DNA of 64,000 nt. Origin: Membranipora membranacea (lineage: Eukaryota > Bryozoa > Gymnolaemata > Cheilostomatida > Membraniporidae). The first letter of the stretch is position 1. The number at the start of each line of letters is the position of its first letter. The notes under the pieces were generated by a model. That model did not search any database. It saw only the letters and a program-made list of their open reading frames with translations, and was not told the DNA's origin. The position numbers were made by a program, and so were the translations under genes. The stretch is taken from assembly GCA_914767715.1 (NCBI GenBank), contig OU612069.1:18721387-18785386 (forward strand). The letters are read 5' to 3'. Positions 1,975 to 60,200 of the stretch are shown here, piece after piece.

Positions 1975-4900
1975 CTACAATCAGATCCCAATTAAACGAA
2001 CGTCTTAAAATACAACTAGATATTTATTGTATTATAAATGTTGTGATCCAAGTATACCTGAGCATTCCAAACTGATGCATTGTGGGAATTTTGTTAAAAA
2101 AAGCTTTCACCAGCTTTGCAATTATTGTATCATATGAATGGTATTGGAAAACTCGAGTGTTGCATTGTGGGTATTAATTCATCTGAAAAATACAGAGTAG
2201 TATACTAAAACAGTCAATGTTACAAGAAAAATGTTTGGCAAAATTTAGTTGTATACGGAATACAACTTAATATGTGATGGGCAGTACCTTGTTTGATCAG
2301 ACTCCTTGTGTAGACGGTATTCGGTGTCAATCCCTGCCATCTTAAGACAAACACTGGATATCGCTGCTTTGTACGGCTGAGAAAGAACCCATCTCTGAAC
2401 AGCCGCTACAATCGTAACATCAATTTCAAGATAACTCTTTACTGTATCAAATATTTACTGAGCTAATATACTTACAGTTGGGCTAATTTTGAGCTTCATA
2501 CCATCTGCAATTGCCATCTTCATTCATTTTGTACCAGTTAACAAGAAGACAGCGCACATTAAGAAATACATGTACAACCTGTATGTCATCATTAATTTAA
2601 AACATAGACTCATTTACCTCTATTTAGAGTGATGCCTCTGATGCCACCTGATGTTTTAGATTCTCGGTTTATTGTTACTTCGATTGTCTGGTCTGCAGCT
2701 AAACTGGAGAAACCAGTTTCACTCTGGCGCTGAACCGTCCAACAACCTGGGGTCTCCTTGATCTGTGAGTACATCCATGGATGGGTGTCCTTTAGTTCGC
2801 ACATTTCGAGCCAGTACACTGTTCCGTATCTGGTGAATCAAGATCGTTTATTTTAAATATTTTATCTACTAGAATGCTTGTCGGCCCATCATAATAGCTC
2901 AACACACATTTCAACTCTCTCTTGGAGTACTAAAAATTTAGCTTTTTTGTAACGGTATATTATTTGAGCTATCATCTGTCCATCTTAGATCAACCAAGAC
3001 CCTACGTTCAGTATAATAGAGGAGTCATACTATCTACCATCCTTACACTTCACCAATTCATGGTGATTTTACTTACCTAGAATAATTAGTCCGATCATAG
3101 GCAAACATCCAAGGTAGCATGTCACGTAACGATGAAAGGTGGAGATCCCAGTCACTTGTCCTCGTCGCTCTAATGAAGGCAAGAAGTGTCATCATCATAT
3201 CTAGGTACGACTGCCAAAACCTGAAGGTGAGACTAGTAGAGGATGATTGCAGTATGAACTCTTCTAATCTCTCACATACTTCATCTGGGATGGCGTCTCC
3301 ATCACACTCAGCAACTTTTTTGGCTATCAGATCTGCCTCCTTCTCTTCAAGCGAGTCGAGAAAACTAGAGAACTGCATCCTAGAGAGAGCTTCAAAGAGT
3401 TGTTTATGAGCTCGCATACTTCGATTATAGCAATGTCCAGATAGTACACCATTCACTGATCCTAAGGCAACAACCTCGCTCTCTACCAATATGTCCTCTA
3501 AGCCGGAGAGTGCAAACCTCTTTCCAATGGCACTGAGGAAGCACATGGCTGTATGGAATTCTCCTAATCTTAGTGCAAGCTTTGACTGGAGTTCAGGTCG
3601 GCACCAGCGAATCTGTTGTGCTTTACTGTATATGGCTTGATCCATCACAACCATTACAGACTCGCATTGCAGCTTCTCGACAACAGCCAGTGCAGATTCC
3701 AGTATGTGGTTTACAGTGGATAGTTGCGTAGGAGAGGCCTCGATTACTGGTAAGTAATGTATGATTGATACTGGGAGCGGTTCACTGTTCAGGATGTTGT
3801 ATGCGGTCCAGCCAGGTAAGGTTTCAGGTGATAACTTGAGTGATTTACGTGCTATGTAGGTTCTGTCATTGGTGATTGAACGTTTCAGTGGGCGGTGAAC
3901 ATCTGCTTGTTGGGGTATTATTGAGGAGGTCAGATGTGGTCCCTGTTTAGTAGACAAGAAATATGGAGCAATCTCTGTTGAGGGCAGTGTGAGTTTTCTG
4001 CATTTTCTAGGAATCGTGTGCTCCACAGATGGTGCAGGTGTGTTTGACCTCAGTTGAATCATCAGCCCGTTGGTATGATGTGTTGTTCCATGACCTGAAA
4101 GAGTTTCTTCACTAAAGTCAATGTTGTCATATACTAGCATTGTGAAGTTCTTTTGAAGAAATCCTGCTGGTAGACTGAAAGCTGTATTTGCAGCTTGCTT
4201 CAAAGCAAGTGCTGTTTCGAGCCTAATAATTGAGTCATAGCTGCAAGAATGACCAAATCCATGAATAAGTTTGGCTAGCAATTTAGACCCTGTCATATGC
4301 CTCACTGTTAGGCCGATGGCTAAAGACTTAGGAGTAACAGCAGCACCTTTGGAGCTTAGCTGTACAATGTCTTGGGCTAAGCTGAGAATTTTTAGGCGAA
4401 CAGAGGCGTCCAAATTATAGTAGGTGTTCCAGTCACAGACCACATCAGCATGACCTGTCATCATAGCTAGAAAATTAAATAGTGGTGGCGGAACAAATTC
4501 GACACAGGCCTCAGCGTTTAGGTTGTCTGCAGTAGGTGGCCAGGGGATCTCGACTTTTTTGGTTTGATCTATATACAAACGGAGTGAAATTGCTGCCTGA
4601 TTGAGTTGATATTGATTGGATTGGGTTACACTATTGAAAGGGATTTCCTCATCACATGAGCTGGCAGTGTCGACCTCGCTCAAGAGGCTGGATGTGTTTG
4701 TGAGTACTGATGTATCAGTCACTAAATCCGTCAAAACTGCATTGCTGCTCGTCACTATATCACCATGAGAGGGATCAGAGGCTTGATGAAAACTAAGGCG
4801 GCCTTTAAACTCTCTCTTCAGGCGGTAGACAAAAGCTTTTCGGCTGTAAAAAGATGATAGTTTTGTCTGAAAGCACAATACATGTTAGTCCGAGGAAGAA

Positions 4901-19112: not shown

Positions 19113-20661
19113 ATCTCTCTCGTGATTAGTAATCAATTCATGATAAGTTAACCTGATTAGTGATATTAAAGCACATAATTTTAATTCCTTTGAAACATAA
19201 ACAATATAAAGGTATCACTCCTTTGACAATATAGTTACTGCTCATCATAATCTTTTTACAATATGACACAGAAACTTTGAAAAAACAATATATAGCAATG
19301 ATCCTTCCTGCATAATTGACTGATGCTTCTTTCACAAAACAGGTAAATGTGATGAGACAAATTATGTGAGGAATTGACTGATTTCAGTATAGTGCAACAC
19401 CACCCATGACCACTTAGATAAAAAGAGTTTGTAATTAATCAACTTACCCTTTTCCTTCTCAGTCAAATAAAAATTTTTATCTCACTTTGGATTTGTATTA
19501 TCATTGATCAATTGCTTTATGTCAGTCACACTTTACTTGTACCTTAAAAAGTTGATACCACCTATTGATTCTGCCCCAAATATGAATCTGAACGTTGAAC
19601 AAATTGAGTCTAGCATGTCTTCAAACTGTTGAAACACACTGTTTGGTCATTTGAGTTAACTTGAATACAATTCAGATTATCGTCTGAATCTTTCACAATA
19701 TGAAGAAGGCTGGCATCATGGGGCTATAATCTTTTTTGAACTTAGGAACTGGCAGAGCATTTGCTTTCAAATGTTGATTGCCACCTCATAGGAATTTTGC
19801 AAATATGAGTCGGTTAAGCTAAGTTAAGTAGTTGGAGCGTTGGCAAAGTTGATGAAAAAATTCTCTCAGCTATCATTTGATTAAATTGAGCAATGGAACA
19901 AGTTTTCCCAGTCCTGAACAGGGTTTCAAGACACACCCACAAAAGTAAAGGTCCTGATTGTTGAGTTATATATTAGCTCAAATTACAAGCGAGGTATTGA
20001 TTATTACAGCCAAGAGATCATTGCATCAAACATTGAATCCTGTCATATGTCAAGTTTGCCAACATATGACTAAGGCAGTTTGCCGCACAAAGCATCGTTT
20101 CAAGCTGGGTCTGTTGCTTTCAGAACTGAAGAATCGAAGTGATACTTGATACCTGCTATTCAGTTTGAAATATATATTTATTGTTATGGAAAATAGAAAG
20201 TTGATTGGAAAAGTTGTAGCTGCTTACTGAAAATAAAAAAACAGCGAACAATAGTCATGATCGTAACAGGAAGGTTTTTGCATTCAACATAAAAATAAAA
20301 GTTTGTTTTATGGAGTTACTGTAGCACAAATACACCAGATAAAAATAAATGTTGTAAGATTGCAACAAAACAATCTTGCAGGCCAAACGATTCTTCTCAA
20401 TGTTCAAACAAAAAAACATACTTAAAAAAACATCAGAATAAATAATTGGCTATCTGGAGCTAGCCAAAGAATGACAAAAAAGTAATATCCCAATATCATA
20501 TTATCTCTCATTAGACATGATGCGAAGAAATGTCCTCAGTAGGCGCTGTTAACAAAATTGAGGTTGTTAGTGTTGAATTTGAAGAGATCACAGGCTGCAG
20601 AGATAAGACTACATATTTTAATATAAATATATAGGACATTTACAGCTCCGATCGCTTGATT

Positions 20662-20997
20662 CTATAGTATTATGCATCTGAAAAAAAAACAAGATACATT
20701 GTGCACTAATTGTTGGTTGGTTGAAATATCCCATCCAGGACATGAGCAATAAAAATGACCATCCAATATATTATGAGAATTGAGAGCAATCACAAACTGC
20801 TATGAGTTTTCATGTTTTCAAGGTGTAAGTCATGAAGTTGTATTGTAACTACCACAATTGAGAGACACTGTTATTGTTATGATAACTTACCCATTCCCCT
20901 TGGACTCGCCACCACTCCCAACATTGCAGCTACTGCCTCCGTTACTTATATTTGCTGCCTCAACCCCATTTGGTCGGCTTGGGGAAACAGGAACCTC
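20662..20997 (-). pseudogene. CaaX micro-protein copy A, lacking promoter and start exon
   Basis: Exon 2 (20891-20997) and exon 3 (20662-20677) keep good splice sites and an open frame ending GNGCIIL-stop. They are almost identical to copy B at 23401-23920. The counterpart of exon 1 (MKPA) and of the upstream promoter is missing: about 600 bp are deleted and replaced by a short insertion at about 21115-21155. No ATG in frame is available in exon 2. Unless an alternative upstream exon is used, this copy cannot make the protein, although the body is not otherwise damaged. Confidence 0.75.
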
Positions 20998-21114
20998 CTG
21001 AATGAATAAATTGCAGACCTCATAATATTGATAATAAGACTTAAAAACCTTAATTCAGAACAATGAGTCATTAATGTTGCAAATATTGTAAATAATAAGA
21101 AATCACATTGAATT

Positions 21115-21158
21115 ATTTTTGTTTTTTGCTGGTGTGCGTCAGCAGTTTTTCTAAGGAG
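21115..21158. other. Templated insertion at the copy A deletion junction
   Basis: Where copy A lost about 600 bp, the break is filled by about 40 bp. Of these, 33 bp from TTGTTTTTTGCTGGTGTGCG onward are identical to sequence at about 21718-21750, 0.6 kb away in the same unit. Such filler is the mark of end joining with short templated synthesis. Confidence 0.75.
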
Positions 21159-23400
21159 ATTGTTGATGATCACTAGCATATGGAGTTACATAAATATTGT
21201 CTTTCTTTTTAAACAACATATCATTGCTTGTTTTTTGGGAATAAAAGTGGCTGAGGGTGGGAAAGGTGCTCTATAAGAGTTTTACTAAATTGTTCACCTC
21301 AGCAAAATACCAATGCAGTTGTCGCATACACAGCAGCAAACAGGAGAATTGTCTATACCAACATCCGACACAATAACAACATCCAATATCTTTGCCAGTA
21401 TCATCATCAGTACACTCAAACCTTGACTTGAGGACACACAGTTACCAGCCGGTGCATATCACCTCGAATCGGGGATATGCAAATAAATTCAAATCTAAAT
21501 TCTATTCTTAACACCGATGCCACCCTAACGCCAGAACCGTGACAACCATGACAATGCAGTGAAGGTGGCGCCAACAGAGACAATTCAGAATTAGCATGAT
21601 GTCTAACTTACACCAACCAACTCTTGCTGCCGATCAACCCACGCTTGCGGCCGATCAACCCACTCTTGCGGCCGATCAACCCTCTTTTTGCGGCAATTGA
21701 GAAATGTGTTTTATTCTTGTTTTTTGCTGGTGTGCGTCAGCAGTTTTTCCAAGGTGTCTGGAACCATGCCATATAAGAGCATGGTACACCAATGTAAGGG
21801 CCTCTTTGTTTGCAACTTCATTTGGAGACAGGTCAGTTTTTTTAAACATGAAAGTTCTACGAGTTATTACCATAATATTTTCATTTATTGTACGTTAGTG
21901 ATATTTATAGGGAAATAGAACTTGCCTTATTATTTAATAATGGCACAGTATAACATTTGGTTGGATTATCTATACCATCAACTAATTGAGTTAAATGAAT
22001 TAAATCCAGCATGCATGGCATCATTAACAAGAAAGTATGACTTGTAGAAATAAGACATGCATTGTTAAGTTGAATTGCGTTTGATGTTAAACTTGATAAG
22101 AATTAAAAGGCATGCTCTTGAGTCAAGTGTTTGATCTCGAAATAAATGAGATATCAATTATGTAAATAAGTCAGTGTCACATAGTGAGAATCATCATACC
22201 GAGCTCGTGAGCACAGATCTCACTGGCGGAGAGTTAATGTGGTGACTCCATAACCCGGAATCCCACACAGTCACGTCACATGAACATGCCAGGATAATCG
22301 TATTGGGACTGAACCCAAGTTGGATCCCATTGCATTAGGATTAACAGTGCTAGGTATGTGATATGAAGAGTGACGTTGGCAGAACTAGCATATCTTGCTT
22401 CGCATTATGCTCGATTCATCACTAGTATTGACCTAAGGGTCACCATTAGACATGAATAATAACAATAAACATTATATCAAGAAAACCGGAAAAGGTGTTG
22501 GCGATCGGTAATATTTGCCTGTGAAATTATTATATTATTTGTATTCTCATTTATAGTAAATAAAACATTGTAGCATACTGATTCTGGCTGAGATATCTCA
22601 TCTCACAACAAGGTGTGTCATAGGATTTCATAACAAAAATTCAGACAAGGTCTTATTCAATTGCATGATCACAACTGCTGATCTGGATAGTTACAAGTGA
22701 TAATGAAATAAATTGAAATTGGCCATATGTATTAAATGCAATGAATTTTTGTAGGAATACAGAATGCAATGCACATCTAAAAAAAATATGAAGGATATTA
22801 CGCTGATAAAAAAAAATATCAATGAATAATGGTCACAATTTATAAACCTGCATTCTTATATTACCACACAGTCATATAATATTTGACTCTTTGTATCATT
22901 GCAGAATCACGCATTTCTCCATGAATGCTATAATATGATTACTAATAGTATAGTGTAGCTGCTTACTGAAAATAAAAAAACAGCGAACAATAGTCATGAT
23001 CGTAACAGGAAGGTTTTTGCATTCAACATAAAAATAAAAGTTTGTTTTATGGAGTTACTGTAGCACAAATACACCAGATAAAAATAAATGTTGTAAGATT
23101 GCAACGAAACAATCTTGCAGGCCAAACGATTCTTCTCAATGTTCAAACAAAAAAACATACTTAAAAAAACATCAGAATAAATAATTGGCTATCTGGAGCT
23201 AGCCAAAGAATGACAAAAAAGTAATATCCCAATATCATATTATCTCTCATTAGACATGATGAGAAGAAATGTCCTCAGTAGGCGCTGTTAACAAAATTGA
23301 GGTTGCTAGTGTTGAATTTGAAGAGATCACAGGCTGCAGAGATAAGACTACATATTTTAATATAAATATATAGGACATCTACAGCTCCGATCGCTTGATT

Positions 23401-23920
23401 CTATAGTATTATGCATCTGAAAAAAAAACAAGATACATTGTGCACTAATTGTTGGTTGGTTGAAATATCCCATCCAGGACATGAGCAATAAAAATGACCA
23501 TCCAATATATTATGAGAATTGAGAGCAATCACAAACTGCTATGAGTTTTCATGTTTTCAAGGTGTAAGCCATGAAGTTTTATTGTAACTACCACAATTGA
23601 GAGACACTGTTATTGTTATGATAACTTACCCTCCTCCCTTGGACTCGCCACCACTCCCAACATTGCAGCTACTGTCTCCGTTACTTATATTTGCTGCCTC
23701 AACCCCATTCGGTCGGCTTGGGGAAACAGGAACCTCCTGAATGAACAAATTCCAGACCTCATAATATTGATAATCAGATCACCGGCACTTATTCTTCATT
23801 GAAATGACTTAAAAACCTTAATTCAGAACAATGAGTCATTAATGTTGCAAATATTGTAAATAATAAGAAATCACATTGAATATAAATGATTGATGTATGT
23901 CAACTTACCGCTGGCTTCAT
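23401..23920 (-). CDS. CaaX micro-protein copy B (44 residues, ends CIIL)
   Basis: There are three exons: 23909-23920 (MKPA), 23630-23736 and 23401-23416. Splice signals are GCG/GTAAGT, CATTCAG/GAG, GGAGG/GTAAGT and TTTTTTTCAG/ATGC; phases are 0 and 2. The product is MKPA, then EVPVSPSRPNG, a Ser/Gly-rich middle with one Cys, and GESKGGGCIIL-stop. The last four residues form a CaaX box. A C-terminal Leu in this position normally directs geranylgeranylation by GGTase-I, so a small lipid-anchored membrane peptide is predicted. There is no signal peptide, membrane segment or known domain. It resembles only the tail of G-gamma or Rho proteins, without their bodies. Three paralogues lie beside it. 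Function unknown. Confidence 0.75.
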
Positions 23921-24028
23921 TGCAATAACCGTGCAGCTAAAGAATCATGTTTCTAGTCTAGAGGATATTCTATAAAGCTACCTTTGCAAAACACACTCCG
24001 CACTGGAATTGGATCGGTCTTGGTGCAG

Positions 24029-24119
24029 TATTTATATTTGTTATGTCACGTGTTCAATCAGAAGCAATAACAATTTGCGTTGCTACAGAACTTCATGGCG
24101 TGATGGTTTTTCGTCCAAT
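24029..24119 (-). promoter_or_regulatory. Promoter of CaaX copy B: TATA, GTTGCTA and CCAAT elements
   Basis: On the minus strand TATAAATA lies at 24029-24036, about 110 bp before the ATG. Plus-strand GTTGCTA is at 24079-24085 and CCAAT at 24115-24119, 36 bp apart. The same pair recurs upstream of copies C and D with spacing 37. GTTGCTA resembles an RFX half-site, an inference only. Confidence 0.5.
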
Positions 24120-26314
24120 AGGACACTTCATCATTAGACAATGGAGCTGTATTTCTCACGCAAGAATTTTCCGCACCCTAACTATGTTCCACACATCTTA
24201 GCATGAGAACTCACAAACTTCCGTCATGATGACAACTATCGGGAAATAGAAAAAGCAATATTTGGGTGACTACAGCCGTCATTCATGTGAAGAAGCAACG
24301 TCATAAAAGTGCAAGCGCATATGGTCGATTACATAAAGTTGTTTACTCTGAAAACAGGATAACCACTGTTCATTGTAGGGTTTACTAAGCAAACATGCCA
24401 GTGAGTTTCAGAATTGGTTGTAGTTAGTTATAAATGAACAGCTCGAAAAACAAGCGCAATAAGTACATTTCTTTTAACTCTAACAGAGATTGTTGGTGAT
24501 CACTAGCATATGGGGTTACATAAATATTGTCTTTCTTTTTAAACAACATATCATTGCTTGTTTTTTGGGAATAAAAGTGGCTGAGGGTGGGAAAGGTGCT
24601 CTATAAGAGTTTCACAACATAAATTCAACTGTGCTTCTGTTTCACTAAATTGTTCACCTCAGCAAAATACCAATGCAGTTGTCGCATACACAGCAGCAAA
24701 CAGGAGAATTGTCTATACCAACATCCGACACAATAACAACATCCAATATCTTTGCCAGCATCATCATCAGTACACTCAAACCTTGACTTGAGGACACACA
24801 GTTACCAGCCAGTGCATATCACCTCGGAGATATGCAAATAAATTCAAATCTGAATTCTATTCTTAACACCGGTGCCACCCTAAAGCCAGAACCGTGACAA
24901 CCATGACAATACAGTGAAGGTGGCGCAAACAGAGACAATTCAGAATTAGCATGATGTCTAACTTACACCAACCAACTCTTGCTGCCGATCAACCCACGCT
25001 TGCAGCCGATCAACCCACTCTTGCGGCCGATCAACCCTCTTTTTGCGGCAATTGAGAAATGTGTTTTATTCTTGTTTTTTGCTGGTGTGCGCCAGCAGTT
25101 TTTCTAGGGTGTCTGGAACCATGCCATATAAGAGCATGGTACACCAATGTAAGGGCCTCTTTGTTTGCAACTTCATTTGGAGACAGGAAAAGTTTTTTTA
25201 AACATGAAAGTTCTACGAGTTATTACCATAATATTTTCATTTATTGTACGTTAGTGATATTTATAGGGAAATAGAACTTGCCTTATTATTTAATAATGGC
25301 ACAGTATAACATTTGGTTGGATTATCTATACCATCAACTAATTGAGTTAAATGAATTAAATCCAGCATGCATGGCATCATTAACAAGAAAGTATGACTTG
25401 TAGAAATAAGACATGCATTGTTAAGTTGAATTGCGTTTGATGTTAAACTTGATAAGAATTAAAAGGCATGCTCTTGAGTCAAGTATTTGATCTCGAAATA
25501 AATGAGATATCAATTATGTAAATAAGTCAGTGTCACATAGTGAGAATCATCATACCGAGCTCGTGAGCACAGATCTCAGTAGCGGAGAGTTAATGTGGTA
25601 ACTCCATAACCCGGAATCCCACACAGTCACGTCACATGAACATGCCAGGATAATCGTATTGGGACTGAACCCAAGTTGGATCCCATTGCATTAGGATTAA
25701 CAGTGCTAGGTATGTGATATGAAGAGTGACGTTGGCAGAACTAGCATATCTTGCTTCGCATTATGCTCGATTCATCACTCGTATTGACCTAAGGGTCACC
25801 ATTAGACATGAAAAATAACAATAAACATTATATCAAGAAAACCGGAAAAGGTGTTGGCGATGGGTAATATTTGCCTGTGAAATTATTAAATTATTTTCAT
25901 TCTCATTTATAGTAAATAAAACATTGTAGCATACTGATTCTGGCTGAGATATCTCATCTCACAACAAGGTGTGTCATAGGATTTCATAACAAAAATTCAG
26001 ACAAGGTCTTATTCAAGTGCATGATCACAACTGCTGATCTGGATAGTTACAAGTGATAATGAAATAAATGGAAATTGATCATATGTATTAAGCGCAATGT
26101 ATTTTTGTAGGAATACAGAATGCAATGCACATCTAAAAAAAATATGAAGGATATTACGCTGATAAAAATAATATCAATGAACAATGGTCACAATTTATAA
26201 ACCTGCATTCTTATATTACCACACCGTCATATAATATTTGACTCTTTGTATCATTGCAGAATCACGCATTTCTCCATGAATGCTATAATATGATTACTGA
26301 TTGTATTTATCTTC

Positions 26315-26845
26315 TTATAATATGACACATCTGCATCTAAAACAGAAAGAATTTAATGTTCCTTAATCTAATGATAGACCTACTATCACTCGATATTTCC
26401 TCCTCAATCATCTGCATGTTATGTTATAGTGGCTGAACCTAAAGGAAAACATTCATTGAATCGAGTACGACAGTCAACGAAGCTTTCAAGAAGAAAAGGT
26501 TGAATTTAGCATATTGCAGCACATTTGCCAAAATCTACAAACAATGTGACAAACAGACTTACCCTCCTCCACCGCCCTCACCACCACCTCCTACATTACA
26601 GCTGCCGCCTCCATTACTCATCTTTGCTGTCTCAGCCCCATTGGGTACGCTCGGGAAAACAGGTATCTCCTACAAGTGCGATTATAAAAGTCAAATTGTT
26701 CAGTGATGAATCACAAAGAGTATCCTGATGTTAAAAGCGAATCAATTTATCTAAGATGGTGAAAACATTGTTGGAAAAAAATCTTTTCAAAAAATTATTG
26801 TTTCTCAATAATGATGATTGTATGACACCTTACCATAGGCTTCAT
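26315..26845 (-). CDS. CaaX micro-protein copy C (46 residues, ends CRCVIL)
   Basis: Exons are 26834-26845 (MKPM), 26563-26669 and 26315-26336, with donors ATG/GTAAGG and GGAGG/GTAAGT and acceptors TTGTAG/GAG and GTTTTAG/ATGC. Exon 2 has exactly the 107-nt length of copy B. The product begins MKPMEIPVFPSVPNG, has a Gly-rich run GGGGEGGGGG, and ends CRCVIL. The Cys at -4 is the prenylation candidate and the Cys two residues upstream a palmitoylation candidate. Exon 2 and 3 sequences differ a good deal from copy B, while start, phases, length and CaaX end are kept, which argues for selection on the protein. Confidence 0.75.
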
Positions 26846-26977
26846 TGCTTCAATGCTGCAGTTTGAAAATCGAGGATCAAGTTCTGTTTTTGGCCACAAA
26901 ATGAATATGTATACCTTTGTAGCGAATTTTTACTTCGGATGGTATCGCATGATCAAGTAGTCAAGAAAACAGTCCGT

Positions 26978-27019
26978 GTTGCTAGAGTACTTGTATGGTT
27001 TGATTGATTTTTATCCAAT
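26978..27019 (-). promoter_or_regulatory. Promoter module of CaaX copy C: GTTGCTA and CCAAT
   Basis: GTTGCTA is at 26978-26984 and CCAAT at 27015-27019, 37 bp apart (start to start), about 130-175 bp before the ATG at 26845. The flanking TATGG and CCAATAGG words are also shared with copies B and D. Confidence 0.5.
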
Positions 27020-27080
27020 AGGGCAAGCGATTCCTCAGCATTAAGACTAAACAGCTGAATTCCACAGTATTCTATACCTA

Positions 27081-27318
27081 CAGGGCTGTAGTTAAGAAAA
27101 ATGGCGGGGAGGAAAAAGTCTGAGGCGAGTCCGGAGCAGGACCAGGAGGGGTGCTGTAATTTCCTCCCTGTGCAATTTAAGGCATATAATTAGCAAATGG
27201 AAATCTTAGAGGAGGTGATTCTGACATGGATTATTCAATTATTGTGTTTTTGTGCAACTCTATTTAGCTTTTTTAGGGGAGGCAGTGCCTCCCTGCCTCC
27301 CCTAGAACTGCGGGCCTG
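27081..27318. mobile_element. Possible hAT-type MITE
   Basis: The left end CAGGGCTGTAGTT and the right end, read in reverse as CAGGCCCGCAGTT, form imperfect terminal inverted repeats. Purine-rich GGGGAGG stretches follow on both sides. CAGGG ends are typical of hAT elements. The flanking 8 bp (TATACCTA and TAATACCA) match only roughly. No transposase is present. Confidence 0.35.
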
Positions 27319-28157
27319 TAATACCACATTTCATTCATCGTAGGGCTATGATTGGATATTTAACACACATTATGATAAGTGATTGCGAGTTACATTCATC
27401 AAGAAATAATAATCCAGTGAACAGTAGTAATGCCAACTGATGGGTTTTTTATTATTTTGTTCACCCAAAACAAATGATTGCCATTTTCCGCACTTGATAA
27501 CTATTTTGTGTCTTGTTATCTGAGCAAACAAGCATATTAAATGCTGACTTTTTTGGACTTGTATCACAGCCCGTCTAGTTTTGACTTCAATAAAGGCATA
27601 CCTGGCTTACTCAAGTAACATGATATGGGGCAGTGTAAGCTTATCTAGCCCCCTTTGCACAGTGAGTCGGTATCGGTAAATCTTCACTAAAATTAGGGTA
27701 AGGTTTCGTTTGGTGAAATCAAATGAACATCAGCCTTCCCTCACTATTAGGATTGCAAGCTTCGCATTTAGCAGACTTCAATCAACAGCTCATAGGTGAA
27801 TCCATCGTGACAGCAATATCAATTTTGACTTTCATTCTGACATTTCATTAGTAAATTGATCAAGCAAACAACATATTTTTTACAGCTATAACAATTTTAT
27901 TCACACCAGGAAAGAATGAAGATATCTAAAACATATGATAAATGTGAAAAAAGGTCACAGAGGAAAAACCACGTCTATTTTTGTTGAATAACAAGCAGCA
28001 CACTTTTGGTTTGTTTTAAATTCTTCATCGTGAAGCATTAGCCAACAGTCTCTGAATATTAGACATGTGAGAGATGAGAAATCCTGGTTAAGCAGTATGT
28101 GTTAAGAAGTTCAGTCAGCAATATAGTTTCTGTGCATTGAGTTATGAGCGTTGGATT

Positions 28158-29511
28158 CTACAGTATGACACAGCAGCATCTGTAAAAAAAAGCAATAAAA
28201 TAAGATTTTGTAATAATATCTGGCATTACTGAGCTTGAATTAGATGACAAGACTAAATGAACGCTCAGTATTGGACAGGAGGCCACGGATTAGTAGCCAT
28301 CAAGACACATGCCAATTCATTATCAGAGTTGAGCTTGACAGGTCTTCAACCCTAATCCTAGATTCTACACAACCATGCAGGGGAAGACTATCACTCAATC
28401 CTATGTTAATGATAGATGCCCTATTGCTAGCAAGCGGGAGTCAAACTTTGAGGCTAAATTAAGCTATAGCCAAACACACTGAAAAGGATTATTATATATC
28501 TTGAACTGAGGGGGGTTGCTCATATAACACCTGACAGTGGGGCAAAAATACATATTATGATCAGTCCTCAAACCTGATCTCCTGTCTGTAACAACCTAAG
28601 CCCTATCTAGGCATGAATATGCCCGACTACTTGTAATAACATCAACATACATCAACTCAGTTTAAACCAACCATTAGGCATACTTGATCGCACTAAACAA
28701 GTAAAATTATCAAACGCTTGATTACACAGGCTACAATGTTCTATTTTTTATCCCCACTTGTAAGATATAGTGGCCTCCCAGTTAATATGGTTGGTTGCTT
28801 ACAACATTGAACAGAGAAATTGTAAGAACAGAAGCCTTAAACGCTGAGCACAGCCACAGAGCTTCAAAATGAGCTCCTATTCCACAAATAATAATAATCT
28901 CCAGCATTTGGGGCTTCCAGTGATGTTGATATTATTCCTCAATGAATCAGGCATCAATACTATCTTTCATGCATCAGCGTATAACAAACCAAAAAAACCC
29001 AACCATCGGGTTTACTTGACAATGTTAAGCAACTAACTCAGGGATTTTGAGCAACAAAAGTAAAGATTGAATAAAACCTGGTACATAAAGCTCAATCAAC
29101 AGGCTATGAACTCTCTATTAAATGCTGTACATCTGACAAAACAGCACAACTTAACTCTACAATGTAGCTCATAAATCAAATTGAGAGAATGCAAATTAAT
29201 CTAAAGGCAAAGAATTTATCACCATAAAGGATTCTACATACCCACTTCCTCTTCCTTCAGATCCACCTCCAACACTAAGCTTTCCGTCCTTGATTCCTGT
29301 CGGGTCTGGCTTGGAGACAGTGAGAAAATCCTACAAGAATAAAGCTGAGATGATAATTGCTATGCCTTTTATGTAAAGATAGGAAAAATTAAGATCACCT
29401 TCATGATTTTCACATCATTTCAAAATAAATTAAGGTAAAACTTGCTAAAATATGGTAAAAAATTAAAATATTCTTTTGAATGACATGCAAGGTACTTACA
29501 GTCGGCTTCAT
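28158..29511 (-). CDS. CaaX micro-protein copy D (40 residues, ends CCCVIL)
   Basis: Exons are 29500-29511 (MKPT), 29242-29330 and 28158-28179. Donors are ACT/GTAAGT and AGTGG/GTATGT; acceptors are TTGTAG/GAT and TTTTTTACAG/ATGC. The product has MKPTDFLTVSKPDP, a Gly/Ser-rich middle and the end GSGCCCVIL. It is the most diverged member, with exon 2 shorter by 18 nt (six codons). The intron before exon 3 is about 1 kb. Three adjacent Cys just before VIL resemble doubly lipidated Rho/Rap-type tails. Reading phase 2 at the last junction is needed; it gives the CaaX end in all four copies, which supports it. Confidence 0.7.
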
Positions 29512-29634: not shown

Positions 29635-29706
29635 GTTGCTAACCGTAGTTTATGGCGCGATCAATGATCAGCCAATAGGAATTATTTGAGGTTCAAGGCA
29701 TTTATA
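29635..29706 (-). promoter_or_regulatory. Promoter module of CaaX copy D: GTTGCTA, CCAAT and TATA-like
   Basis: GTTGCTA is at 29635-29641 and CCAAT at 29672-29676, again 37 bp apart, 125-165 bp before the ATG at 29511. A minus-strand TATAAAT at 29700-29706 lies further upstream and may not be the functional TATA box. Confidence 0.45.
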
Positions 29707-29709
29707 TTG

Positions 29710-32035
29710 CTGTATTCCACACAAATCATTTAGCATGCTTTCTAGCCTAAAACAACATAAAACTGTTAATTGGCCAAATGTATAAATATTATGATGAATT
29801 GGGTAACAATTGAAAACAAACAAATTGATACTGATTTGTAAAAAGTTAGAAACCAGCTATCGGGTTAAATCAAATATTATAATTAGGCATAATTACCATG
29901 AATATAAAGCAACTGTTTTTATTGTAAACAAAAAGGTGAAATTTCTAATGTACAGGGTATGTTTAATAATAATTTGTTATTGTAATTTATATAAGTTGGG
30001 TGCAAAATAACTGATTGCTAAGATGTATTTTCATTATCGATTATATTGCAAGGTCATTTTTAGAGAAACTTTGTTGTCTGTCAAAAATGCTGCCTCAATT
30101 TTTGTTGTATTGATTATCGGTAGCAACATTAGGCTATCATAAAAGCAAAATAACAACTCCTTAGATACGGAAGTATCAAGCTAGCAGACTGACTCCGCAA
30201 GACATCGATTTCAAATACACATCAAATTCAGACAAAGCGCTTTTCTGCCGTATACTTATACTCATGTTACTGATATCGATTTATGACACTAAAACATTCT
30301 CGTTGAGCGGCTGATCAGAATAGGCGAACCTGTGTGTTTGACCCGGGATATATTTGAAATTCTATCACTTGTTAATTTATGCCTCTTTTCAGCAATTATT
30401 GTCAATGGATTAATCATCAGACTAAGATTAGAGTGATAGAAGATAGGCCAATTTACTGCCATTAACAGTTCTGTACTGTAATGGGGCAGCGTTAAAAGCG
30501 TTGATAGTGGATAAGGATAGCGCTGTATTGATTTGGAAGCCATAAATTCTGGTCTTTTCACCATACCGATACAAATTTACAAGAATTGATTTGTTGTACA
30601 TGAAAAAAAACATAGCAACACCAATAGGCGCTGAATGAAATTTAAAAATACCGAACACTTGTAGGAAGACTTAATTAGTCCAGTTTCCGCTTGTCTGGAA
30701 GGGAATAGGTATGTCACTGTCAATATCATGGATTTGATCTCAGCAGACTTTCAGATACCAGCAAAGAACAAGACAACTTATAATACACCAAAGCTGACAC
30801 ACTACGCTCTAATGCCGAGACATGAATACAGCTCACAGTCTATCCTCAACAGCTGATTCTTTTGTTCAATAACAAGTTATGTTCTCATGAACATGGGTAA
30901 GACAACTCCTAATGCAGATATTAAAAAAAATGTTGGTATAGTGTGGTAAGTGGGTGTAAGTAATGATAGACTGTCAGCTTTTGGTGATATGTGCTGTTTT
31001 CCAGTCATCCATCTTTAAGTCTAATCTGAATATATAACGGTACATCAGATTCAGCAAATTTTCTTCTGCATCGCTACCCCACAATGCCAGCAAACCTATT
31101 ATGATTGATCTGATCATTATGCTTCAATGAAAACAAGAGATGCTGTTTCTAAACATAACTGCAGCGGCCATAAGCATATTTTTGTGACAAAAACTGTCCC
31201 CATCTTAAACTCTGCACTATCATCAAGCAATCTTGCAAAACATCATTACTACCATCATGAGATTATTGCACTCACTATGTATGTGTGTATATGAGTAGCA
31301 AGTGCTAAATGAGGTTTGGAATGTGATGGTGTGGCATTTGTAGTTACAACAGTCCCTGTCATTTTACTGAAAGTCAACATATTAATCATCTTAGGCTTAG
31401 CTTTATTGGTATAACTTGTGTTTGCTCTGCTCAGGTAGGACTGGCCTACAAGGATAAGCCCTCGTGTTCAGTTCGGGTGAAATGTGATCAGTATTTACAA
31501 CCCTCGGTCAGTAGATGTCTAGTTAGAAAATTTGCAAATTTTGATTGCTTGTCACAATATTTAAACCAAGAAAAAGAAGAAAGTTCCAATAGCCAAGCTT
31601 ATATAGTCATGCAAATGTGCAGAACCATGATGGTTGAATTCTTATCATATTTTTACACTGATAAGAGAATTATTTGCAGTAGCAATTGGTAAAATTTTGA
31701 TACGGTGTCCTTATCAGAGCTTTGACGCGCACAGCAGCAGTCTGGTTAGTTATTCATAATTTGAGTTTAGCTACCCTCTAATACTGCCATTGATAAGAGA
31801 TATGAATTTCAACAGTAATCAGCCCCAAGCAGTGAAAGGTTTTCATATCACTCTTATCAGGAGTGTGACGCACCCAGCGGATACTAAGTAGTAGAGTGGT
31901 TAAAATAGCAGCTTTACTTTGCTGTTGGAGTTTGTGTTTCCTAGAGCTCTATTTGCAGTCACTTCCCTCTGACGATTGACCAGAGGTGTTGAAATTTAAT
32001 ATTGTGCTAGTCGATAGAGGAATTAGCAGGAGAAG
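29710..32035. other. Gene-free stretch
   Basis: Between the CaaX array and the NHL gene I see no supported exon. Two short related sequences near 31700-31780 and 31840-31960 share TTATCAG..GTGACGC-like words and may be repeat fragments. Confidence 0.4.
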
Positions 32036-32039
32036 AACT

Positions 32040-35000
32040 ATGCTGCTGAAGTTGGTATCTGCTGTTGTAAGTATGGTAATAATATTTTACATTTTTGCTT
32101 TAGATGTAATATTAACACTGAAATCATTCTTGTTGGTTCAACTACAAGCTTGATCAAATCATTCAAGTTTCTGTGTCAGACTGCAGAATTAAGGTGTGTT
32201 GAAGCTACAGCTGCCATATCAGCCCAATTTTGTTATGGTTTGCACGCAGATTAATTCACTTCACGTGGTCCCAGTATTTAGCAGATTGCATAGGGAATCT
32301 AACTTCGGGCCTACGACCCTTGCATGTTTGAGGTTGTGTGTCTCTAACCGTTTGAGCTAACTCCTACCTTTGTTGCTTGAGAACATTTATCTAATATCGG
32401 TTGAAATTGACGTTTCACCTCAAAACCTGCAACTATCTCATGAGACACGACTTCAGCAAGCCTTATCAAATGTAATGAGCACATTGTCTTGTAGTAATTG
32501 TTGTAGTTTGCTGATGTCAGTAGGGATACCAAAATGGTGTTTGATCATGGAGATTTTTTATCAAACTTATTGATCTAACAGATGATGTTTTGTGGTGTGA
32601 CCCTGAAACCTGGTTGGTGTATGGATCCGGAAACTCAGTCTCTGGTGGAACGGTGAGTCAACTGCCAAATGTATCTTTGAAATGCTTTCAGTCCCTTGAG
32701 CTGGATCTGCTGGCATGGTAAATGGAAGTATTGATCATTGAACATTCACATTACATGTGATTGGAATGGGAATGCTATGCAAATCTGATGGCCAAAATAT
32801 CTTCTGTACCAATGTATCAAGATGTAAGCAACTAGAACAGCAGATTGACTGACTTTCATCTTCTGAAGAGCTTTTTCCGTGAGCCAAAACGGATTCACAA
32901 CAATAGGTTTTGTCACATAGTATGAGTTAACACCAAAACTTAGTTGTTTTTAAAGCAGGAATGGAGAAAGACACTATGTCAAACACCCATCATAAGGGCG
33001 CACTGTTTTTTTCCGGTTCCCCTCGATGTTAGTTTTATTGTTGGCACAAGCCTGCAAAGTTAGACATCCCTGTGGATGTAGAAATATAATTTTGACCAAT
33101 ACCTTTTTTATAATTAAAGCCTCAACAGTGCATTGAGTTCCATTTTAAGGAGTTGCAGATAAAATGTCACAGGTGCGGAGAGTTGGTTGAGTTGAAAATT
33201 AATATAAATGAGGCATAAAAATTCAATTTAAGATTTAATCAGAAACGCTTCACATAGTGTATTACAATTTAACAGATTAGAAGGATCTAGAAATTCAACC
33301 CTCATCAACGATAATTCTGGCGCTGTTTATGTCATGAAGATGAACTCGTATAGACCCGGTTTTGTCCTTTACCCGGACCAGTACTCACTCAAGACTAGCG
33401 ACGGTAGAACCTCACATATAATAGCAGGAAGTACACTTGTGCCAGGATATAGAGGAAAGGGGAAAGAGGGGAAAGGCTCTAATGCTCGGTTCAATACTAT
33501 CACTGGGATCGTCCAAATCACCGATACGCATATAGTTGCAGTTGACTCTAATCTGGATTGTTTGAGACTTGTTGATCAGTTTACAGGAATTACTCCTGTA
33601 TTCAGCGGAGTTTGTGGGTCAGAAGGGTACGCAGATGGTCTACCTGGACAGTTTAACATGCCATATTTTGTAATTAGAGACAAAAATGACCACAGTCAGC
33701 TTCTTGTGACTGATATCGAAAACAAAGCCGTGAGAACCGTTGATATCAACACTGGAGCTGCCGGCACTTTTGTTAGTTCCGACTCTCTCCTTGATATCTC
33801 TCACCTAACACAAGACAAGGTTGGTGATATATATCTCACAGCATCCCATGCTATTTATCGTATAACATATAAAGAGAAGGAGATCAAACTCATCACAGGT
33901 TCTACCTACGGCTACAAAGACAGCTCTCTCCTAGATTCTCAATTTATCTTCCCAATCGACCTTGCATTCATCGGACATCAGGTTCTACTGGTAGCTGACA
34001 GCAACAATAACAAGATTAGACTGATAGATATCAACACAGACAAGGTAACAACGCTGAAACTCTGCTCAGGATGCCTGAACCGTCCAGCCTCTCTACTTCT
34101 CACAAAGGACTGTCTTTATGTCGGGCAATGGAGAAGAATCTTGCAGTTTACATGTGAGTGGAAATAATATGCATAGAAATGATGTTCTCATTCATGTTGT
34201 CCCACATGTGGGGTTAACTCTTGATGATAAATCATTAAGAAAAATTTAAAAAGCTCCCCTTAGAAATAGGTTGATTTGAACTGTTTGTTAGAATTGTTTA
34301 ACTAAAAATTCACACTCTGATCAGATGTTACTTATCTGTGTTCCTGCACAACAGCAGCTGGAATTCATCCACGAGTGAGGATAAATTTGATTGACTTGGT
34401 TGAAACGATGAAGAAAAGTGATGCACAGACATGCGGTCAGCATAGAAATCCATGAAATTTCACAAAGACCCGGTCACAAGCTAGATCAAGCACGATCTAG
34501 TTTGTCTGCATTTAGTGATTGAGCGGCCAGCAAAAGGCTGCTCACCAGTAGCATAAGAATGATCAGACTGTAGGCAAATTGGATCAAACTTTTTCTAGTC
34601 ACAAGCAATACCGACAAATTTTCTCAGACTCTATCTATGTTATGTACACCAATCCTAGGAACATCACAGTTTGTCATACAAGATTTTGAGGACTGAAATG
34701 TGAAAATTTTGATGATTTGATTTGTTGATTGACCGGGCAGCCCAAAAATCAAGTGTAAACAACGTAGGGAGAGGATTATCATGTGAGCTGCCTTAGCTCC
34801 TTTGTTAAAATAAATGAATCAACTAATCATCTAGTTTGATACTTGTGCGGTCAAAAACCAGGATATCAACTAGGAGATCAAGCAAAGATTCTCTTCTGCC
34901 GAACACTTTTTAAATTCAAAATTAAGAAAAGTATGAATAATGTTAAAACAGTCAGGTAACGTTGAAAAAAAAGGACTTCTCATAATGCTCAAATTTTTAT

Positions 35001-57200: not shown

Positions 57201-60200
57201 CAAATTAAAGTCACACGTATTGGCCACTTAAAATTTCATGTGTTACAAATCTTGTTGAATTTGCGAGTTGTTACCACCTACCGATATTTATCATAAGTAA
57301 AAGTTAATTCTTATTTTCAATTGGATTTCACTTTTAGGAGTTTTCACTTTTGGCTATATATAAGTGTTATTGATAGATAAACAAAAGATTGGAAATCTCA
57401 TTTTCCAGGAAGTTAAACTACTGCTGCCACAGCTGGGCTTTGCCCAGCATAGCCACCAGTCAAAAATTTGAATAGAGAGTTGCGGCATCAAAACATCTAG
57501 CCAGTAGATTTGCATGGAGTTATATGAGCTCTCAAAATGTAGGGAGTATCTTCTTCCCCAGCCATCCACCATTAGGGATGACAAATGTTGTTGTTGACCA
57601 ATCAGGTGCCTTATCTAGCTGAGATCCAGCACTAATAAAAATGTTGGATCTCAGCTATATTTTAAAGGCACCTGATTGGTCAACAACAACATTTGTCATC
57701 ACTAATGGTGGATGGCTGGGGAAGAAGATACTCTCTACATTTTGAGAGCTTATATAAGTCCATGCAAAGCTACTGGCTAGATGTTTTGATGCCACAACTC
57801 TCTATTTAAATTTTTGACTGGTGGCTCTGCTGGGCAAAGCCCAGTTGCGTCAGTAGTGGTTTAAGGACAATCCCAATCACATAATTGGGTTTTCAAAGGT
57901 CCAAAACATGGTCGTAGTCAAATCATCCAATAAGTTCAATGTGGACTATTCTTTCCAGCATACAAAAATAATGTGAAAGGTATACTCTCCACACTTCATA
58001 GTATGACTCACTGTTCTGAATTTATGGAGATCTTTCTCTGAGGTGTTTGTTAGTTGTATCTGCTCGTTGAGTTGTTTGCTCAGCCCATGAATCTGTTTCC
58101 GCAGGTTGAAATTCTCTCTCTGTAATTGTTTAATCTCATCAGACAGGTCGCGGGTCGCCATCGCAGCAGTATTTGTAACCTACAATCAATGTTAACAGAA
58201 CACACATGACTTACAGAGCAACAGAAAGATCTTTTAGTTCTAATCCCAATTCAGATTTTATTTCGAGACATCGCCCTCTATTATTATACATTCGTTTCAT
58301 ATGGAACTACCTTTTATCCCTGGCCGAATGTGTGGAAGAGAATATAAATCATATTTCTGGAGATCTGAGAAAGATACTCTCAGGTATATCAGGTTCTAGG
58401 CGTCACCATTGATCACATATGGCTAGTTTACAGGTGATCCTGGGTTCAAATCCCAACAGGGCTAATTGATTTTCTTGGAAAGGAAATGCACTACGTTTTT
58501 GTGAATCCATGAACACATGAAGGACAAAAGATCATGAGAGATGAGCCGAAATGGTTTGAATCGGCTGTCATTTGACTCTGAGTTATTGTGCGAGCCAGTC
58601 AAATTTTCATTTGACCAAGATCATAGGGTCTAGATCCAATTTTATCAATTAAACCTGTATTGTCAGTTGTATCCTCAGTGTGTAAAACCCTGCATATTTG
58701 AATGAGGGAGAGATGACGGAAGAATACCAATATTAAATTGCATACATATATAATGATGGAATACTTGACACTATGATTGGTTAGGATCAGCTTGACTTAT
58801 TGCCGACATAAAACATAAAGTTGGGTCTAGTTGCCTGCAACTGAAGTTGCCCCCTTCTGAAGAACCATTTGTCAGTAGAAGGGAGCAACTCTCAATGTGG
58901 GGAAACTGGATCAAACTGTCCTTATATACATTGAACAGCGAGGGGTAAAAGCACACAGAAAGCAGCTCACATTGAGACATGTTCTAACCTCTAAATCACT
59001 GAAGCTGTCAGATATATCATGGGTAGATTGGGTGAATAATGTGTCATTACTGAGGTCAGCATGCAGTGCAGGCTAGAATAAAACGAGTATCAGTAAAAGA
59101 GGTGACAAAGATATAGCAAAGCGGTGACCGACAAAAAAATAACCGAATATCATTCCAGGTTCAAATTATATTGACATTGATTTTGGGATGTAACTATACG
59201 CCTGTCCGTCACTACTTTGATGTTTGATGTCTTAGCGCAATGGTGGTATGTGTAAGAGGTAGGTAGTGGTTATATCAAATCCCTCTTTATTAAAATGTGG
59301 TTTGATAGCAAAATCGGTGTGGATGCAATGTGCTTCATATCATGAGGATATAAAGTACAAACTGGCATGCAATTGTTAAACGTTTATGCACACTGTGTAC
59401 AAACAGTGGGTCAGATGCAGCATGGCTCTATATGTAATAGCCAGACTATACCAGTTTGAATACGTTTGACTATAATTATAGTATTTTGGAAAGTGAGCAA
59501 GATTGAAATTCTGCACATTTGGACAACTAAAATTAACGATATCAAGTATCTCTAATGATGACTAAAAATCTGGGTAAATCTAAGATGTAAAGGTTGTCAA
59601 ATTTGCCAACATTAGAAGTTGCCAGCCTCCTCACTTAGTGTCAGCTAGCCAGTAGAACCAGAGCAACTTGAAATGTAGTCATGTTGCATTGTGCTTGATC
59701 GAAGATTTACACAACACAAGGTCATCCACAAAAAATGCTCAAGTGTTTTTTAATTGAAGGGAGCTCAATGATTGAAGAACCAATCTTGCTTACTTTTATA
59801 TAGTCTCATATCAAGATGTTTGAAGTCTGAGGATAAGCTAGTACTAGCAGGGGTTCGGTTGCAAGCCAAATGAAATTACAGCTGCAGAGTCACAAACTAT
59901 ATCTGAACATAAAAAATTCTATAAGGTGGATATATAAAAACGCAAGACAACCACATAAGTGTGTATCTTACCCTAGCGGCAGCACCATGCCTGTGTTTCT
60001 GAGTGAATGTAGCCTGTGTTTGTTCAGGTTCAGCCGGGTGAAGCACTGGTACGTCCCAGTGTTTGAGATCTTCATGGAATAGTTGTTTGGCCATTTGTAC
60101 AAACTGAGCATAGCTGACAAATCCCTGACTATCAGCCTGTAGAGAGTGCCTCAGATGGGCCTGCCAATAAAATTATATGAGTGATTAAGCAAAGTAACAA

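Follow-up and report, generated by a model that had tools for sequence, protein, structure and literature searches.

A candidate family of three-exon micro-genes with CaaX-Leu ends and a shared promoter block in the bryozoan Membranipora membranacea

A stretch of 64,000 nucleotides (nt) from the bryozoan Membranipora membranacea (assembly GCA_914767715.1, contig OU612069.1, positions 18,721,387 to 18,785,386), hereafter the window, carries on its minus strand four short gene-like units whose predicted proteins end in CaaX prenylation boxes. BLASTN self-comparison, shuffles and Markov controls were all made on this sequence, and positions are counted from its first base. Located base by base, three units (A, B and C) are complete and the fourth (D) consists of exons 2 and 3 only; their parts, with the means by which each was identified, are as follows:

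29500 to 29511, minus strand: gene A exon 1 (MKPT), from the exon-1-plus-donor pattern
29242 to 29330, minus strand: gene A exon 2, 89 nt, from weak similarity to exon 2 of B, C and D
28158 to 28179, minus strand: gene A exon 3 and stop, end CCCVIL, from the acceptor and CaaL-stop pattern
26834 to 26845, minus strand: gene B exon 1 (MKPM), from the exon-1-plus-donor pattern
26563 to 26669, minus strand: gene B exon 2, 107 nt, from BLASTN and hidden Markov model (HMM) comparison
26315 to 26336, minus strand: gene B exon 3 and stop, end CRCVIL, from the acceptor and CaaL-stop pattern
23909 to 23920, minus strand: gene C exon 1 (MKPA), from the exon-1-plus-donor pattern
23630 to 23736, minus strand: gene C exon 2, 107 nt, from BLASTN and HMM comparison
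23401 to 23416, minus strand: gene C exon 3 and stop, end CIIL, from the acceptor and CaaL-stop pattern
20891 to 20997, minus strand: unit D exon 2, a truncated copy of C with neither exon 1 nor promoter block
20662 to 20677, minus strand: unit D exon 3 and stop, end CIIL, from the acceptor and CaaL-stop pattern

All introns of the four units have GT/AG borders, with intron 1 in phase 0 and intron 2 in phase 2, and they reach up to about 1.06 kb in the three-exon units. Coding exon 1 is 12 nt long and reads ATG-AAG-CC(N) in all three complete units, giving predicted proteins of 40 (A), 46 (B) and 44 (C) residues. The predicted C-termini are GSGCCCVIL (A), GGGCRCVIL (B), GGGCIIL (C) and GNGCIIL (D), such that Cys-a-a-Leu stands right before the stop in 4 of 4 units (CVIL, CVIL, CIIL, CIIL), given the predicted splicing. 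The limits of the array in the original prediction proved exact, 20662 being the last base of the D stop and 29511 the first base of the A ATG, and its exon coordinates, its phases of 0 then 2, its Met-Lys-Pro start wherever exon 1 exists, its range of 40-46 residues and its CaaX ends were all confirmed.

The gene patterns were counted across the window and compared with chance. A pattern composed after the units were known, comprising a pyrimidine-preceded acceptor, at most three in-phase codons (phase 2), Cys-a-a-Leu and a stop, has four matches in 64 kb on both strands, all within units A-D; in 100 Markov sequences with a comparable dinucleotide make-up it appeared 0.03 times on average and never more than once. 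Because D was copied from C, these matches comprise three independent cases and not four. The exon-1-plus-donor pattern matches exactly only at A, B and C, with two one-mismatch matches elsewhere in the window, and a scan of the window for further copies with a DNA HMM of exon 2 found nothing above threshold beyond the four units already known. One lookalike was set aside: a CVIL-stop stretch at 19228-19270 (minus strand) resembles gene B at its end and in its 3' flank (77% over 43 nt), but the exon-2 HMM finds no exon 2 for this lookalike (near 19255) and its acceptor is not clear, and the likeness is probably chance.

Upstream of each complete unit lies a compound block of short motifs, each located by exact pattern match:

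29635 to 29679, minus strand: gene A promoter block, CCTATTGG ... ATC ... CCAT ... TAGCAAC
26978 to 27022, minus strand: gene B promoter block
24079 to 24122, minus strand: gene C promoter block

The composite pattern CCTATTGG-N10-ATC-N3-CCAT-N9/10-TAGCAAC has three matches in the window, one ahead of each complete unit, and none in 100 shuffles, a comparison that is not independent, since these same three sites were the source of the pattern. TAGCAAC follows CCTATTGG by 29-30 nt in all three complete units, and the end of the block precedes the ATG by 123 (A), 132 (B) and 158 (C) bases. When the window was scanned with a 29-nt model built from B and C only, the A site ranked third after B and C, barely above the next (37.0 versus 36.0). 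CCTATTGG, an inverted CCAAT box, is enriched on its own (6 occurrences versus 1.5 expected; 1 of 100 shuffles reached as many). According to PMC11344851, the non-palindromic X-box of RFX5/RFX7 is CCTAGCAACA and often lies close to CCAAT boxes; TAGCAAC is the core of that published sequence, to which, counted by eye, B conforms at 9 of 10 bases and A and C each at 7 of 10. A reading of TAGCAAC as a ciliary RFX X-box was dropped, since that source gives the element as the RFX5/7 non-palindromic type. The possible likeness to promoters bound by RFX5/RFX7 and NF-Y consists in an inverted CCAAT box near TAGCAAC, and expression is perhaps governed by a module of a CCAAT box and an RFX5/7-like X-box. 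A fourth co-occurrence of both elements is found on the plus strand at 30613-30628, in the interval that separates gene A from a beta-propeller-like gene of the plus strand, where TAGCAAC and CCAATAGG sit one base apart (TAGCAACACCAATAGG).

Within the gene bodies of B and C, BLASTN (E<=1e-5) aligns exon 2 only, over 115 nt at 78% identity. In global comparisons of B with C, with z values taken from 40 single-base shuffles each, a procedure that inflates z in AT-rich sequence, the promoter block (76% identical, z 10.4) and exon 2 (77%, z 14.2) stand highest, followed by exon 1 (4.5), intron 1 (4.3), the 5' leader (3.1) and intron 2 (1.8); the distal upstream region (0.3) and the 3' flank (-2.1) complete the series. 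The ratio of nonsynonymous to synonymous change (dN/dS, NG86), the calculation of which had been proposed alongside the original prediction, was 0.21/0.64 (about 0.33) for B-C, 0.24/0.74 for B-D and 0.041/0.085 for C-D, with dN below dS in each; comparisons involving A, for which the alignment is uncertain, gave 0.40/1.13 (A-B) and 0.47/2.40 (A-C). Omitting two codons found only in B, 32 of the 132 aligned coding bases differ between B and C, distributed as 10, 7 and 15 over codon positions 1, 2 and 3. These produce 14 amino-acid changes, compared with 20.0-20.7 under random placement (P 0.00125-0.0051, depending on transition bias), by a rough neutral test, made on a single pair of 44 codons with stops permitted. 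In exon 2 of B and C, frame 0 is the sole stop-free sense frame. Possible poly(A) signals lie downstream of three units, with AATAAA 257 nt after the A stop and ATTAAA 40 nt after the stops of C and D.

Unit D owes its form to a recent rearrangement of the array, in which two blocks are joined head to tail with a junction within two bases (22954/22951). Both were delimited by BLASTN self-comparison and a repeat finder:

22954 to 26306, minus strand: duplicated unit 1, the region downstream of B plus gene C
20215 to 22951, minus strand: duplicated unit 2, the same region plus D

Aligned pieces of at least 134 bases between the two are 97-98% identical by BLASTN. The second copy is without about 600 bp, corresponding to 23882-24485 of the first and comprising the promoter block, 5' leader and exon 1 of C; this deletion leaves D with no start exon of its own. 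The claim of four genes accordingly stands for A, B and C, which are complete, and not for D, which lacks exon 1 and promoter block and lies inside a 97-98% identical copy of the C region. The deletion junction in D holds 44 nt of filler (21113-21156), 95% similar to a stretch about 600 bases away (21711-21754), which resembles the product of template-switch repair. Between C and D there are 6 differences at 123 exon sites versus 19 at 733 other compared sites (Fisher P=0.16), so that no constraint is visible since the duplication, yet the changes are too few for a decision. D could be the alternative end of a longer transcript, for which its splice phases fit, a dead copy, or an allele misplaced by the assembler.

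Searches for relatives gave no convincing match, in collections where spliced micro-genes are scarcely represented. For all four proteins, Pfam at E<=10 gave no convincing match, the sole match being YxzE for B at E=7, in a search where the HMMER filters discard most weak matches; PHROGs and PDB sequences likewise gave no convincing match. With the family alignment as query, 5.8 billion predicted proteins yielded 112 candidates, none at E<=10. As a control, the same database was queried with the neighbouring beta-propeller-like open reading frame (ORF): of 2374 candidates, 39 reached E<=0.001, 36 of them at <=1.8e-34, so that this neighbouring exon does have relatives there. As micro-exons are probably uncalled as genes in that database, the protein-database negative says little. 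Pattern searches gave 573 matches in GTDB contigs and 110 in viral contigs (IMG/VR), of which none was confirmed in either, and the promoter pattern had no match in the GTDB contigs; the window had no Rfam match at gathering thresholds. The collections searched are prokaryote- or virus-weighted, or dependent on gene calls, and are ill suited to revealing animal micro-genes of three exons. Among titles and abstract openings on small CaaX proteins and prenylated peptides, with few subscription papers covered, no such family was found described. The earlier suggestion of an undescribed family fits this lack of convincing matches and falls short of being established, as the collections are poorly suited to spliced micro-genes.

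Taken on sequence, A, B and C are best read as a genuine three-exon gene family and D as a recent truncated duplicate. The claim that these are coding genes with CaaX ends draws support from the shared promoter block, the B-C coding constraint, and the common frame and phases. Several observations weigh against this reading, in addition to the crudeness of the neutral test. By itself TAGCAAC shows no enrichment in the window (9 versus 8.7 expected), no AATAAA or ATTAAA occurs within 700 nt of the B stop, and relatives outside the window were not found in the collections described above. In the A-B global comparison, intron 1 is above shuffles (z 3.8) just as the promoter block (5.1), exon 1 (4.5), exon 2 (6.3) and exon 3 (7.2) are, with the 5' leader at -0.3, so that these A-B z values are overstated. 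Exon 2 of A is marginal in a protein HMM built without A (E=0.052, the best non-member piece) and was not found by a DNA HMM built without A. A is the weak member, and its place in the family depends on its promoter, its MKP exon, its phases, its Gly-rich body and its CVIL end taken together. Exon 2 is also free of stops in all three antisense frames, and the wobble-sharing antisense frame is as conserved as the sense frame (24/35 versus 23/35); exon 2 alone thus leaves the strand unfixed, and the assignment comes from the splice sites, the two outer exons (1 and 3) and the promoter. On the plus strand, open frames of 87 and 75 codons (26443-26706 and 23575-23802) lie opposite exon 2 of B and of C; the antisense open frames are probably a by-product of Gly-rich sense codons. 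On balance, we give a probability of about 0.6 to a small, real family of 40-46-residue peptides, Gly/Ser-rich, near-neutral and probably disordered, of which the CaaX-Leu end would be the one strong feature.

Each protein contains 8-13 Gly residues and has a net charge of -1 to +1 and a hydrophilic body; none is polybasic, and the Gly/Ser-rich bodies are probably disordered. A CaaX box in which X is Leu is preferred by geranylgeranyltransferase I (GGTase-I), and the products are probably geranylgeranylated membrane peptides. From known enzymology, the Cys would be geranylgeranylated by GGTase-I, the last three residues cut off and the Cys methylated, placing the matured peptide on the cytosolic face of membranes. 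Without a polybasic stretch, stable plasma-membrane residence requires palmitoylation; as no such stretch is present, any second signal would be palmitoylation, possible in A and B only. Extra Cys residues beside the box, originally ascribed to the whole family, occur in A, where CC precedes CVIL, and in B, where CR does, and are absent from C and D, and are thus no family trait; adjoining Cys residues might serve as a palmitoylation signal, making double lipidation plausible for A and B only. C, with no second signal, might exchange between membranes or bind prenyl chaperones. Conservation of the N-terminal part in B and C (MKP.E.PV.PS.PNG) suggests a partner-binding motif, and as a tentative proposal the peptide would most likely act as a membrane-tethered short motif that binds a partner, with the Gly/Ser stretch as a flexible spacer. 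The idea in the original prediction that the peptides are decoys or competitors for prenyl-dependent partners is neither supported nor opposed by these results. The nearest likeness for the tail of A (CCCVIL), and less so of B (CRCVIL), is RhoB, with Cys beside a Leu-type CaaX box: PMC4160200 reports that, across several species, its tail CINCCKVL alone, prenylated and palmitoylated, is enough to bring a chimera to endolysosomal vesicles. The RhoB tail ends a GTPase, whereas here the tail ends a linker of 30-40 residues, and C and D lack the extra Cys.

Alternative explanations concern both the integrity of the array and the nature of its products. Independently of all other alternatives, C and D might be alleles of one gene set in tandem by the assembler, leaving A, B and C as the true array. 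Identity of 97-98% over 3.4/2.7 kb falls within the heterozygosity of some marine invertebrates, but the head-to-tail junction within two bases and D's own large deletion with its 44-nt filler speak against alleles, and plain unequal crossing-over accounts for the arrangement; we regard misplacement by the assembler as unlikely. Exons 2 and 3 could instead belong to larger transcripts as alternative terminal exons, or the array could be decaying, with D already dead. The loss of exon 1 and promoter block from D, and an exon divergence between C and D no lower than at other sites, are what such relics would show, but A, B and C each possess a promoter block and a 12-nt start exon of their own, and B and C bear the mark of coding constraint; we regard this alternative as a whole as unlikely.

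If the genes are functional, their products may yet be something other than cytosolic lipid anchors. Fungal pheromone precursors are very short, have CaaX ends and occur in multi-gene arrays, and the units here share with them a short precursor, a CaaX end, a tandem array and divergent bodies with similar ends. The peptides could be processed into prenylated lipopeptides that leave the cell as signals, in the manner of yeast a-factor or the pheromones of basidiomycetes, with CaaX maturation, N-terminal trimming and export by an ATP-binding cassette (ABC) transporter. Against this, the present genes have three exons with an intron of up to about 1.06 kb, no pheromone family matched any of the four proteins in Pfam at E<=10, a processing site is not evident by eye, and the stretch before the CaaX box is Gly/Ser-rich where mature a-factor is hydrophobic. 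In its favour, Drosophila germ-cell attraction needs geranylgeranylation, and the authors of PMC2607556 leave possible a geranylated target besides Ggamma1, acting with a second attractant, but favour Hedgehog, released with Ggamma1 help, as the attractant. Export as a prenylated signal finds no positive support beyond the shape of the genes and appears quite improbable. An animal family of prenylated micro-peptides serving as RFX/NF-Y-switched lipid anchors with a short motif, which in its boldest form would be a counterpart of the fungal lipopeptide pheromones, is likewise improbable as a complete proposal. Small size and a Leu-type CaaX end also recall heterotrimeric G-protein gamma subunits, of which these could be truncated or extremely divergent versions. 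A Gly-rich body of 40-46 residues leaves no space, however, for the Gbeta-binding helices of such subunits, and no G-gamma match was found in Pfam (E<=10, 4 of 4 proteins) or PDB sequences. The fly protein Ggamma1 ends in CTVL and carries its geranylated CaaX Cys at position 67 (PMC2607556), beyond the full length of the present proteins, and kinship with this class is extremely doubtful.

Returning to the preferred reading of a small gene family, small CaaX proteins are known as a class, and a dedicated, promoter-sharing family of 40-46 residues in an animal would be new as far as the searches reach. Were the genes transcribed and their products prenylated, an animal would have dedicated prenylation substrates of very small size, and these would make a test case for the free-standing lipid-anchored peptide, whether through partner capture, prenyl-chaperone competition or export. 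Gene annotation easily overlooks genes with a 12-nt coding first exon and a 16-22-nt coding last exon, and a true family here would suggest that other genomes hide similar genes. Should the pheromone-like alternative be true, animals would gain a candidate class of prenylated signals sent out of the cell.

Elsewhere in the window, two long minus-strand open frames of 607 and 603 amino acids (168-1991 and 3073-4884) are possibly one mobile-element-like gene; the former resembles CXC (Tesmin/TSO1-like) weakly, at a score under the Pfam cut-off, and the latter is unmatched. At about 57.0-60.2 kb on the minus strand, ORFs resemble exons of a coiled-coil protein, one of which (59897-60172) has a weak EF-hand match (P2R3B_EF-hand), likewise under that cut-off. 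On the plus strand, exons at about 33.2-36.3 kb include Thr-rich ORFs and the beta-propeller-like ORF (33232-34167, weak SGL match) used as the search control, of whose 39 relatives at E<=0.001 the best is 56% identical and 37 are without a source-given name.

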